The notes beneath the pieces are model-generated. The model was not told the origin of the DNA. It saw only the letters and a list, made by a program, of their open reading frames with translations, and made no database searches. This document shows positions 58,879 to 62,810 of a stretch of DNA of 64,000 bases, piece after piece (the stretch's first letter is position 1; every line of letters begins with the position of its first letter). The position numbers and the translations under genes are program-made. The DNA is from Candidatus Aenigmatarchaeota archaeon. GTDB taxonomy: Archaea; Aenigmatarchaeota; Aenigmatarchaeia; QMZP01; JAFGSV01. Location: contig JAFGFG010000008.1 of assembly GCA_016931255.1 (NCBI GenBank), positions 1 through 64,000 of the forward strand, given 5' to 3'.

Positions 58879-59562
58879 CTACTGAATTACGGTCCCCTTG
58901 AAATCCCTGCTCTCGACTGCATTCTCAAGGTTCTCCATATCCCTTATGTCAAGCACTATGCATTTCAGCCCTGTTTTTTCTATCACACCGACAGCAACAG
59001 GGTCTATTATGGTCTTTGTCCCGGGAGACACAGACTCGGTCTCGGTCATGTCTTTAAGCTCTGATACGGATATGAGCGAGATGAAAGCTGCATTGCTGTA
59101 TTTTTTAGGGTCCCTGTCGTAGACACCCTTCACGTCGGTTCCTATTATGACGAGCTCTGCGCCAACAGCCTCTGCTGACTGCAGTGTTACCGCATCAGTC
59201 GTCTGGCCCGGCCTGAAACCACCGAGAACAATGATTTTACCGCTTTTGAATGATTCCCTTACTCCACCCTCGTCCCTCGGTATTCCGCTGAATGCGGCGT
59301 CACCAAGGGCTTCTATCAGCACTCCGGCGTTCTTCCTTGAAGCCTCTATGCCGAGATTGTGCAGGACATCATTCGAGTCCTCCCCCTGCTTCCTTGCATC
59401 CGCTATCATCTTCCTTGCGAGCCTCCCGCCTCCGACAACAGCAATCATCCTGTGCTCGCTGGAGAGCCCTTTCAGCGTCTTTGCCAGCTTCATTACGAAA
59501 TCCATATCCGGACTTTCCGTCGGGCAGAGAACCGAACCGCCGACTTTGAGCGCGATTATCAT
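58879..59562 (-). CDS. pyrH: uridylate kinase
   Basis: The 227-residue amino-acid-kinase-fold protein has KVGGSVLCP, VVGGGRLAR and GGFRPGQTTDAV, with GTDVKGVYDRDP at the phosphate site. These are typical of archaeal UMP kinase. It makes UDP from UMP for nucleotide and nucleotide-sugar synthesis, including the glycan genes above. It is last on this strand before the AbiE islet boundary at 59590. Confidence 0.93.
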   Translation of the reverse strand: MIIALKVGGSVLCPTESPDMDFVMKLAKTLKGLSSEHRMIAVVGGGRLARKMIADARKQGEDSNDVLHNLGIEASRKNAGVLIEALGDAAFSGIPRDEGGVRESFKSGKIIVLGGFRPGQTTDAVTLQSAEAVGAELVIIGTDVKGVYDRDPKKYSNAAFISLISVSELKDMTETESVSPGTKTIIDPVAVGVIEKTGLKCIVLDIRDMENLENAVESRDFKGTVIQ

Positions 59563-59638
59563 GGTAATATAATGTCATAGGAAAGATAAAAAGCGCCGAG
59601 GAAGTGCTATAGAACTGAGTTGTAATGCCCAACTGACA

Positions 59639-60376
59639 TTACCCTTTCTTTCTTAAGAGTTTTTCCAATGTCTTTATGCATTCCAGAAAATCGAGCTTAT
59701 CGTTTGTAAGAGGATCAATATCGTCTTTCCATTTGCTGTGGATTTTTTGTGCATTTCTAAAAACTCTTTCCACGTCGAACAATTCTTCGGCTTCCCCTGT
59801 TTTAATCTCAACCAAATTCATGTCTATATCCCATTTCTTTGATATGTAATAGACATCGAAATAGTCCCTTGGCTGATTTCTTGTTATAAGTGCCCTTACC
59901 TTTTCTGCAATCAGTTCTTTCAGATTGAGCGTATTCACACTGAATGACACCCCATAGAAGTTTGGGACTTCATGGACTTCCGGTTTCAGGTGGATTGAAG
60001 CTTTCTTGTTGATGTCAAGTATTATGAATGATTCCTTCTGGAAATAACTTTTGTAGTACACCTTGTATCTCACGAACTCCGCGGTAGTTTTATCAGTTTC
60101 AATCCTTGTGAAAAAGCCGACTTTCTTTACGAGACTTTCTATCTCGTCCCTTATATCATTTACGGACCTGTCTGTCGCAAAGTCGAGGTCTTCAGAGAGT
60201 CTTTTGTGATTGAGGAATATCTTGTTCAGTGCTGTCCCACCCTTGAAATAAATACCTTCCACTTCACGTATGAGATAGAGAAGATGTGTGAGGAAATAAT
60301 CCTTTTCGATGTATATCAGGTTAAGGTTCATCTCTCCGGCGATGTATCTCAGCTTGTCTTCGGAAATCATTTCCAT
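59639..60376 (-). CDS. abiEii: AbiEii/AbiGii nucleotidyltransferase toxin
   Basis: The 245-residue protein has the DUF1814 nucleotidyltransferase motif: KGGTAL (Gly46-Gly47), R-LSEDLDF with Asp63 and Asp65, and later LKELIAEKVRAL...RDYFDVYYI. AbiEii proteins are toxins of type IV systems that modify tRNA or other targets with GTP or other nucleotides, giving phage abortive infection. Its start overlaps the stop of abiEi by 10 bases, so antitoxin and toxin are co-translated. Confidence 0.9.
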   Translation of the reverse strand: MEMISEDKLRYIAGEMNLNLIYIEKDYFLTHLLYLIREVEGIYFKGGTALNKIFLNHKRLSEDLDFATDRSVNDIRDEIESLVKKVGFFTRIETDKTTAEFVRYKVYYKSYFQKESFIILDINKKASIHLKPEVHEVPNFYGVSFSVNTLNLKELIAEKVRALITRNQPRDYFDVYYISKKWDIDMNLVEIKTGEAEELFDVERVFRNAQKIHSKWKDDIDPLTNDKLDFLECIKTLEKLLRKKG

Positions 60377-60873
60377 TTAATACTCTCCTCCTTTGTTAGT
60401 ATCGTAAAGTCGTGTCCCATGACAGTCTTTTTTACGCAGCGGGGCATCTTTCTTACTCTTCGGAACCTTATCTCCGTTCCGAGGACCTCCTTCTTTCCCT
60501 GTCTGCTTCTGCTGAAAACCTCGATTTCTACTGGTATATGGTCAGATTGACCGTTGTAGTTTGCAGCACTCTTGCCGCCTATGCAGTATCCTTTTGCGTT
60601 GCACATCTCATCTATTATTATGTACGGGTGCTCGGACCATTTGCCATTCCTTGCCTGTACCGGGAGGATGTAATATTTATTTGCGTTTATCTTTACTATC
60701 CTTCCCTTCTTCTTCATTCTGTGTATATAGACGTTCATTTCGTTCTCACTTGAGAAGAACTGCATGATGTCGTCTCTATTGAAGAACCTTTTTCCTTCAA
60801 GTTCCAGAAAAGAGAATACTTCCATCTCCTTTCCTGAAACCCCCATATTCCTTCCTTTATCTTTCATTCTCAT
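60367..60873 (-). CDS. abiEi: AbiEi-like antitoxin
   Basis: The 168-residue protein has an N-terminal winged-helix region (MEVFSFLELEGKRFFNRDD...) followed by the AbiEi core (SEHPYIIIDEMCNAKGYCIGGKSAAN, VPVEIEVFSRS-type strands). It is shorter than bacterial AbiEi (often above 190). It should neutralise AbiEii and repress the operon by binding inverted repeats. The nested palindrome just upstream fits that control. Two close ATGs (60873, 60867) are possible. Confidence 0.85.
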   Translation of the reverse strand: MRMKDKGRNMGVSGKEMEVFSFLELEGKRFFNRDDIMQFFSSENEMNVYIHRMKKKGRIVKINANKYYILPVQARNGKWSEHPYIIIDEMCNAKGYCIGGKSAANYNGQSDHIPVEIEVFSRSRQGKKEVLGTEIRFRRVRKMPRCVKKTVMGHDFTILTKEESIKWK

Positions 60874-60875
60874 AT

Positions 60876-60914
60876 GTTACACCAATATTAACAATATGTT
60901 AATTATAGTGTAAC
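60876..60914 (-). promoter_or_regulatory. nested palindromic operator of abiE operon
   Basis: Two concentric inverted repeats are centred at 60895: the outer arms are GTTACAC (60876-60882) and GTGTAAC (60908-60914); the inner one is ATTAAC-AATAT-GTTAAT (60887-60903). ATTTAAATA (about 60916-60924) on the minus strand is a fitting TATA box. The start site and the operator overlap, which suits repression by AbiEi. Confidence 0.6.
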
Positions 60915-60959
60915 GTATTTAAATATGTTATTTTCTTACCGGAACTGAAAAAGAGAAAG

Positions 60960-61117
60960 CGCCGAGGATGGGATTTGAACCCATAAGCCCAGAGGGCACC
61001 AGATATCTGGGATTTGCGGACTTTTCGATGTTTAGTTTTTCCGCAAGCGCTTTTTTCCTGTCTTGGAAGGAAAAGGGCTTCCAGTCTGGCGCGTTAACCA
61101 GATTCTGCCACCTCGGC
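60960..61117 (-). tRNA. tRNA-Ser (GGA) with intron
   Basis: The minus strand folds with acceptor GCCGAGG/CCTCGGC, discriminator G, a long variable arm (GCCC-TCT-GGGC), T-arm ATGGG/CCCAT and anticodon arm CCAGA-CTGGAA-A-TCTGG with anticodon GGA. The intron is at 37/38 (about 61005-61078, 74 bases). CTGG pairs with CCAG as the central helix and ATA is the 3' bulge. The inner helix is weak but the intron contains two hairpins, TTGCGGA/TCCGCAA and CTTTTCC/GGAAAAA. Its 3' end is the right boundary of the AbiE islet. Confidence 0.88.
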
Positions 61118-61302: not shown

Positions 61303-61455
61303 TTAAAAGCCCTTTCTGGCCTGGCCCGCGCATCTGTAACAAAGACCAAGTTCATTATCAAAGCATTTCGAACAGACAATGGCTCCGCACGAAGAACAAG
61401 TGTAAGCGGGTTTCGCAAGCCCTCCGCACTGCGAGCAGATGCCGGAGACTTCCAT
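61303..61455 (-). CDS. small double zinc-ribbon protein
   Basis: The 50-residue protein has eight cysteines in four pairs (ICSQC, TCSSC, VCSKC, LCYRC). It resembles small archaeal B-box/zinc-finger-like proteins and can bind two zinc ions. It starts by TAATG overlap with the antiporter stop, so it is translated with it. Function unknown. Confidence 0.65.
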   Translation of the reverse strand: MEVSGICSQCGGLAKPAYTCSSCGAIVCSKCFDNELGLCYRCAGQARKGF

Positions 61456-62810
61456 TATGACCCCTCGTTCTCGTCGTACTCCAGCATCAGGGAGACATCC
61501 TCGTCCTGCCTGACGCCGACACTGGGTATGTTGGCATCTTCCTTCTTCTTTTCCTTGCCCTTCTTGGGCTCGCCCTGGAACCTCTTCATGCTTGCGACAG
61601 CACCGACTATCGTGCTGAACAGCACTGAAAGGAGTATTACCATGAACACTATGTTTATCATCTTCTCAGCCAGCACCGGCTGTCCGGCAGCTATTATGGC
61701 CGCAGCCACTATCGGTATCATCGCGGCAGCTGAAAGCCCCCTAGGTGCTATGAATCCCAGAAGCACTAGGTCCTTCTTCGTGAACTTTGTCCTGAGGTCA
61801 CCCATGAGCGACAGCATCATCACAGGCCTGACGAGTACCACCATGAGGAAGAAGAACAGTATGTAGGCGAGCTCTTCCATTCCCATGAGAAGTGTTACCT
61901 GTGCGCCGAGCAGCGTGAAGACAGATATCCTGAGCATCTCAGAGAACTGGTCCTGGAAGTGTATGATGTCATCCTTGTCACCCCTTCCGTGGAGAGTGAA
62001 GTTGCCTGCAACAAGGCCGCATATGGCCACTGCAAGCATGCCTGAGCCACCGACACCGGTTGCAAGTGCGTATGTTATGAGAGCGACTGCGAACAGCAGA
62101 AGCGGCGTGTACTCCTTCATTATGCCCTTAAGAAGATGGGAAACCGCCAGTCCAACTATGAGTCCTGTGCCGACGCCAACGCTTATCATGAGCCAGAACT
62201 GCGACAGGTACTTCAGCGGTTCCAGCAGGGCACCGGGAGTGACACCTACGAGGTCGAGGAATATGAGAGGCACAAGCACAGACACAGGCGAGTTGAATAT
62301 TGACTCAACCTTGAGAATTGTCAGTGCTGTTTTTGATTTGGCGAGAGCCTTCTCGAACGCGAACACAACTCCGCTGCCTGTCCCGCTTATCACAGCCCCG
62401 AGCAGCAGCGCGAACACGATGTCCATGCCGAACATGAGGTGAGCCACCAGACCAAGGACTACTGTGTTGAATATCACCCCTATGAATGCGAGCTTGAGCG
62501 ATATGTTGGAATATCGCTTGAATACTGAGAAGTTCAGGTTGAACGTTCCTATGAATATGACGAGTATAAGGGCGAGCGTACGGAAGAAATCCGGTATTAT
62601 GCCCATCGCAACCACATCGACGAGTTCTATGGAGATGTACTGTGTTATCATCGGGTTCGTGGTTATTGTCGGGCTGAAGAGCAGTCCCAGCAGGAGAAGG
62701 AAGAAAGTATCCGGTATGCTCCTTTTCCTGAGCAGGTTCGCTACAAGGACGCCGAAACCCAGCAGTATGGCGAAATACATCACTGACAATGTAACAGCAT
62801 CCAGAGCCAT
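61455..62810 (-). CDS. CPA-family cation/proton antiporter
   Basis: The 451-residue protein has about 12 membrane helices of the sodium/hydrogen exchanger fold. GAVISGTGSG carries a helix-5-type acidic-region equivalent, then GLVAGNFTLHGRGDKDD and APRGLSAAAM. A C-terminal charged tail (EPKKGKEKKKEDANIPSVG...) follows the last helix. It expels Na+ or K+ in exchange for protons. The antiporter and the zinc-ribbon gene form an operon downstream of a regulator gene on the same strand. Confidence 0.85.
   Translation of the reverse strand: MALDAVTLSVMYFAILLGFGVLVANLLRKRSIPDTFFLLLLGLLFSPTITTNPMITQYISIELVDVVAMGIIPDFFRTLALILVIFIGTFNLNFSVFKRYSNISLKLAFIGVIFNTVVLGLVAHLMFGMDIVFALLLGAVISGTGSGVVFAFEKALAKSKTALTILKVESIFNSPVSVLVPLIFLDLVGVTPGALLEPLKYLSQFWLMISVGVGTGLIVGLAVSHLLKGIMKEYTPLLLFAVALITYALATGVGGSGMLAVAICGLVAGNFTLHGRGDKDDIIHFQDQFSEMLRISVFTLLGAQVTLLMGMEELAYILFFFLMVVLVRPVMMLSLMGDLRTKFTKKDLVLLGFIAPRGLSAAAMIPIVAAAIIAAGQPVLAEKMINIVFMVILLSVLFSTIVGAVASMKRFQGEPKKGKEKKKEDANIPSVGVRQDEDVSLMLEYDENEGS

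Follow-up and report, generated by a model that had tools for sequence, protein, structure and literature searches.

Positions 59590-60968 of the window (the whole stretch of 64,000 nucleotides analysed here) are read, with moderate confidence, as a non-autonomous, CIME-like cassette flanked by att sites, which would have been inserted by tyrosine-recombinase-type integration with the enzyme supplied in trans and would belong to a family of minimal cassettes. Within this reading, integrase-type insertion at tRNA-Ser is well supported by comparison of related loci, and it seems likely that the islet moves as a minimal unit and did not arise by decay of a larger element. The islet would consist of one AbiE operon with an attR/attL-like copy of the tRNA-Ser(GGA) 3' end on either side; once circular, it would have the tRNA 3' end as its attP, which a tyrosine recombinase from another element or from the chromosome would join to the tRNA gene (attB); the joining would rebuild the tRNA at one edge and leave the displaced end at the other. 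In tyrosine-recombinase biology, an attP carrying the 3' end of its target restores that target, and a copy remains at the far edge. We infer that the cassette can be excised, that its recombinase acts in trans and that the toxin–antitoxin pair helps to retain it (addiction) and/or acts in defence. To our knowledge, toxin–antitoxin modules are scattered in archaeal genomes and the route by which a single recombinase-less pair arrived is usually unknown; here units, edges and targets can be read directly, as stackable cassettes at tRNA 3' ends, one of them shared between genera. If a trans-acting recombinase does move such cassettes, very small genomes could trade defence and toxin genes without the cost of a mobile element.

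The source genome (G000) comprises 929 kb in 9 contigs and is 93% complete; the closest relatives that bear a name are Candidatus Aenigmatarchaeota. Throughout these 929 kb, the 13-bp sequence AAAGCGCCGAGGA occurs exactly twice, at 59590-59602 and 60956-60968, and open reading frames and profile searches place only abiEii and abiEi between the two copies, in agreement with an earlier note on this DNA, which had described a repeat of the tRNA end flanking just these genes. The features of the locus are as follows.

58879-59562, minus strand: pyrH (archaeal UMP kinase), conserved neighbour flanking the islet on the outside, with its start codon 28 bp from the distal copy
59590-59602, no strand: distal att-like copy of the tRNA-Ser 3' end, AAAGCGCCGAGGA, lacking a tRNA body
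59603-59638, no strand: inner distal end of the islet; in tRNA direction, a GTTC box precedes the tRNA end by about 20 nt, as in other distal copies
59639-60376, minus strand: abiEii, nucleotidyltransferase toxin (245 aa), with conserved motifs GGT..L/SEDLDF and AEK..A/RN.PRDYFD
60367-60873, minus strand: abiEi, winged-helix antitoxin-type protein (168 aa), a short form also present in relatives, overlapping abiEii by 10 bp
60874-60955, no strand: AT-rich stretch upstream of abiEi, separating the pair from the tRNA
60956-60968, no strand: proximal repeat copy, overlapping the 3' end of the tRNA gene
60959-61117, minus strand: tRNA-Ser(GGA), the attachment (target) gene, with an anticodon-loop intron
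61455-62810, minus strand: cation/proton antiporter, flank on the tRNA side and conserved neighbour in the congeners G001 and G003

ARAGORN finds the intron-containing tRNA-Ser(GGA) only with its intron option on. AbiEii matches PF08843 (E = 3e-26) and its motifs are invariant in 5 relatives; AbiEi matches the PADLOC AbiEi model (E = 1.6e-15), with residues 13-150 falling on profile positions 3-132 of 252, and its short form is kept in 5 relatives. An AbiEii-family toxin with AbiEi encoded upstream is a predicted AbiE toxin–antitoxin pair. The absence of a tRNA at the left copy and of an integrase from the islet, both proposed earlier, is borne out; open reading frames and profile searches reveal neither integrase nor transfer genes between the 13-bp copies. 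At 39-40%, the GC content of the islet is lower than that of its flanks (about 50%). GAACTGA occurs on both sides of the core, but not significantly so (p = 0.17), and direct arm repeats at this islet were rejected on that ground. AbiE/MenAT systems (PMC10435456) resemble the islet pair in combining an AbiEii-family toxin with an AbiEi-type antitoxin, whereas the islet AbiEi is a short form of 160-170 aa and the islet pair is known from sequence alone. MenT toxins modify tRNA 3' ends, and MenT3, which is related to the AbiEii encoded at 59639-60376, prefers tRNA-Ser acceptor ends (PMC10435456). The islet itself lies in a tRNA-Ser gene; this match is probably a coincidence because abiE sits at protein-coding genes in the genomes G013 and G009.

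A scan of the 3 kb downstream of each of 28 tRNA genes of the source genome for same-strand repeats of the gene's own 3' end, 11 bp or longer, gave three, at Thr(TGT) (16 bp), Ser(GGA) (13 bp) and Glu(TTC) (11 bp exact, 15/17 allowing two mismatches). Shuffled downstream regions of the 28 tRNAs gave an expectation of 0.15 matches of at least 11 bp, and three control placements for the same tRNAs (upstream and both reverse-complement) returned none; a chance repeat was rejected on the basis of these shuffles and placements. All three repeats bracket one toxin–antitoxin-type pair each, the cargo being MntA–HepT (PF18765, PF01934) at Thr(TGT) and HTH-MNT–HEPN (PF01909, PF05168) at Glu. It might be argued that the distal copy arose by segmental duplication, illegitimate recombination or chance and that abiE is an ordinary chromosomal pair, given that the window core is only 13 bp and the native spacer by pyrH has not been kept. 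However, three matches against 0.15 expected, none in the controls, a toxin–antitoxin pair between the copies of every repeat and the duplication of the same tRNA ends around other cargo in congeners make an origin of this kind very unlikely. Past the tRNA-Thr islet, the DNA encodes Fic and another MNT–HEPN pair (L151:1275-3278, G000:C5), and in G043 (L220) a related MNT–HEPN pair directly follows tRNA-Thr, with a weak end copy of 9 bp.

The same tRNA-Ser site is differently occupied in congeners. In G001, whose pyrH is 73% identical and where pyrH and the antiporter still flank the site from opposite sides, a 12.1-kb element lies between pyrH and tRNA-Ser, with a 14-bp tRNA-end copy at its far edge; its genes include a 405-aa Phage_integrase abutting the tRNA and a KAP-NTPase matching QatA-type models, and members of this integrase family adjoin tRNA 3' ends in several relatives. 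G003 and G002 contain a single copy of the tRNA-Ser end, with no second copy at the site. The integrase element, the single-copy sites of these two congeners and the recurrence of the layout at other tRNAs agree with the earlier claim of integrase-mediated insertion at tRNA-Ser. The comparison with an empty site, also proposed at that time, held in that G003 and G002 have one copy only; a clean empty junction can be compared just roughly because the congeners are too diverged (pyrH 59-73% identical). Read outward, the outer side of the distal copy in the window (CTTTTTAT / GCGCTTTTTAT) resembles the native tRNA trailer of G003 (CTTTTTGAT / GCGCTTTTTGAT). In the window 28 bp separate the distal copy from pyrH, compared with a spacing of about 330 bp in G003, indicating that some native spacer has been lost.

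The presence of the full 12.1-kb element at this very site in G001 also speaks for a different history, which we regard as rather unlikely, in which a larger integrase-bearing insertion at tRNA-Ser lost all but the addictive pair and the att ends (a CIME by decay, in the sense of PMC5704250), so that the islets would be survivors and not current travellers. Toxin–antitoxin genes are not readily lost, and this would account for the cargo bias; 13 insertion remnants are found in tRNA genes of S. islandicus (PMC3718332); and the abiE pairs at three different targets are just 52-59% identical to that of the window and are therefore old. Against such decay, many islets are down to a single module, with 2-200 bp between it and a core of 13-21 bp that carries no mutations, and since no selection is evident on the distal copy, decay would be expected to remove it often.

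A survey of the tRNA neighbourhoods of ten genomes (172 tRNAs) yielded about a dozen further integrase-less islets, with cargo of mostly toxin–antitoxin, Fic or nuclease genes. The class of small islets is thus wider than the earlier note had supposed, and its proposal to look for the end repeat with defence genes at other tRNA genes led to Thr(TGT) and Glu(TTC) in the source genome and to more in relatives. In G001, the islet at Thr(TGT) encodes a SAM methyltransferase together with a RelE-like pair (called RelE/RelB by eye), that at Glu, of 4.2 kb, channel, CBS and P-ATPase genes (named by eye), and that at Gly(GCC) an MNT–HEPN pair with a 21-bp repeat; the same tRNAs, Thr(TGT) and Glu, hold different cargo in the source genome and in congeners. 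The islets of G004 comprise an MNT–HEPN pair at Tyr (15 bp), a DUF4258/DUF2283 pair (14 bp) and a Fic gene (15 bp). A Gly islet in G009 encodes an NYN nuclease (15-bp repeat), an islet in G012 a metallo-beta-lactamase fold gene (repeat of 11 bp when exact and about 24 bp when two mismatches are allowed) and the Thr islet of G003 a small gene that in G001 is located outside the islet. Proteins homologous to the toxin–antitoxin proteins of the islets are encoded at most 2 kb downstream of 11 tRNAs, 9 of them with the repeat, and the two upstream matches both represent the Thr(GGT) islet viewed from neighbouring tRNAs. A Fisher test for toxin–antitoxin genes next to a repeat gives p of about 9e-10, but part of this is circular, the query proteins having been taken from islets, and the cargo bias is indicative only. 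Against the cassette reading, no tRNA lies within 1.5 kb of 29 other abiEii loci. Probable false positives, left uncounted, are G004:C22 (repeat inside a gene), G065:C1, tRNA duplicates in G043:C2 and L163, and two G041 tRNAs (L362, L363), which have copies of their own 3' end of 21 and 26 bp just 106 and 66 bp downstream, without cargo. The L163 locus (G001:C74:144597-148045) contains about 40 tRNA genes in 3.5 kb, many with encoded CCA, in a bin of 1.9 Mb, and is possibly a viral or foreign contig.

Cassettes also stand in arrays. At Thr(GGT) of G001 there is a tandem array of two, and on contig C75 of the same genome four tRNA-end cores bound three cassettes, encoding a bAvd/reverse-transcriptase fusion and a gene of unknown function; a surface-type protein and an AAA/DUF4143-like ATPase (both named by eye); and DUF4258/DUF2283 with a 122-aa gene. 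Each C75 core that lies beyond the tRNA has a conserved end in front of it, about 80 bp long at most. The bAvd–reverse transcriptase fusion (L183:2806-4224) resembles parts of diversity-generating retroelements. The DUF4258/DUF2283 cassettes of G001 and G004, which belong to different genera, are 87% identical over 813 bp, and the identity stops at the last base of the core; this sharing is the best evidence that the cassette is a unit of exchange. A compact cassette common to two genera with its edge at the core, like the arrays of compact units, weighs against the decay of larger elements. Protein-coding genes may also serve as targets: in G013 the abiE pair lies alone between 26-bp exact (36/37) repeats of the yjbQ 3' coding end, and in G009, again alone, it has on both sides the end of a coding gene, repeated imperfectly over about 74 bp, so that, with the window, the same two genes are found alone between target-gene 3' ends at three different targets. 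The proposed family in Aenigmatarchaeota would mostly carry one toxin–antitoxin or toxin-like module per cassette, would target tRNA gene 3' ends and sometimes protein genes, and could be stacked in arrays.

The arrays of G001 recall integrons; toxin–antitoxin cassettes are known from integrons and CALINs of Archaea, and attC sites have been reported from Aenigmatarchaeota (PMC9668308). The islets would then be integron gene cassettes (CALIN, attC without IntI) which resemble tRNA ends by coincidence, yet the repeat matches the 3' end of its neighbouring tRNA exactly and changes with the tRNA, and no attC hairpin folding above shuffles was detected at the islets (z -0.1 to -1.2), leaving this explanation extremely unlikely. 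Integron cassettes and CALINs do share with the islets arrays of single modules, richness in toxin–antitoxin genes and the lack of a nearby integrase, but rely on attC hairpins and IntI, where the islets have tRNA-end att sites without hairpins and are anchored at tRNA genes (PMC9668308). CIMEs and the accretion of IMEs and ICEs at tRNA genes (PMC5704250) are similar in their attL/attR flanks, their lack of integration and transfer genes and their tandem accretion at one target, although they are bacterial, decayed ICEs or IMEs, whereas the islets are mostly single modules of 0.7-2.9 kb in a DPANN archaeon, with one compact unit in two genera. The dif (pdif) modules of Acinetobacter (PMC6449649) are likewise tiny and recombinase-less, some with toxin–antitoxin genes, and are thought to be moved by a recombinase in trans, but use XerC/XerD sites mainly on plasmids, unlike the chromosomal tRNA 3' ends of the islets. 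pNOB8-type and other archaeal integrative elements (PMC8371274, PMC6563490) insert at tRNA 3' ends with short att repeats, of median 17 bp for integrated elements in Thaumarchaeota. They differ from the islet in having an integrase next to the tRNA and many genes; a pNOB8-type-like element with such an integrase occupies the same tRNA in G001. A 1.87-kb insertion in tRNA-Thr of Caldiarchaeum (PMC3293823) is also small, lies in an archaeal tRNA gene and is bounded by a tRNA fragment, but encodes a putative recombinase and no toxin–antitoxin pair, and duplicates the 5' part of the tRNA.

The term 'satellite-like' used in the earlier note does not apply in the sense of phage satellites (PICI/P4-like): the two-gene islet has no hijack or packaging genes and no integrase of its own, and no relatives of AbiEii or of the G001 integrase were found among viral contigs, on which ground viral carriage was rejected. 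No description of such cassettes was found in the open-licence papers searched. The logic of the islets is that of CIMEs, dif modules and integron cassettes, with a full match to none of them in view of the tRNA-end sites, the absence of attC hairpins, the single-module size and the DPANN host. More tentatively, and as a possibility we would not yet call probable, Aenigmatarchaeota may maintain an integron-like cassette economy on tRNA genes, in which cassettes, each a single toxin–antitoxin or defence module with a single tRNA-end att, would be inserted, stacked and traded between genera by a trans-acting recombinase, tRNA 3' ends serving as attI with no dedicated integron integrase.

In most islets the sequence TTGATATCGATTTT (with few mismatches) is located 8-40 nt past the tRNA end, and many distal copies are followed by it as well; distal copies also tend to retain the T-loop GTTC box. 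It was rejected as a general tRNA trailer because, with up to 3 mismatches allowed, TTGATATCGATTTT follows islet-bearing tRNAs and has only 2 weak matches among about 60 others, one 61 nt away in L178 and one beside tRNA-Ser(GGA) of G004. That the core of the window islet is short (13 bp) and that TTGATATCGATTTT is absent from it count against the cassette reading. Since the GTTC box is kept all the same, the islet may depend on a recombinase of different specificity. The 12.1-kb element of G001 has a GTGTGAACGCCTAC-like arm repeat, inverted at both ends; this repeat is missing from the window islet and the source genome has only a truncated relative of the G001 integrase, which was rejected as helper of the islet. 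That C-terminally truncated tyrosine integrase (L115:9610-10293, G000:C2:224687), about 2.2 kb from a tRNA-Pro pair, is a remnant of another integrated element. The source genome has three Phage_integrase genes and the truncated one, none of which adjoins an islet. Its orphan tyrosine recombinases are encoded at C7:51374 (192 aa), C2:318854 (XerA-like) and C7:59046. Orphan tyrosine recombinases of about 190 aa with only the catalytic domain recur across these genomes (L155:5345-5920 in G000:C7, and similar frames in relatives) and are helper candidates.

An extra intron-like insert in the T-loop, beside the att core, is present in tRNA-Ser(GGA) of both congeners with a vacant site (L094:4362-4580 in G003 and L096:7130-7360 in G002) and absent from both occupied tRNA-Ser genes (60959-61117 in the window and L093:16948-17031 in G001). 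The pattern is a lead and not a rule, because tRNA-Ser(GGA) of G004 has neither insert nor repeat. Vacant sites with the insert and occupied sites without it provide a test case for the idea of Randau and Söll, as cited in PMC3293823, that tRNA introns guard against integration.
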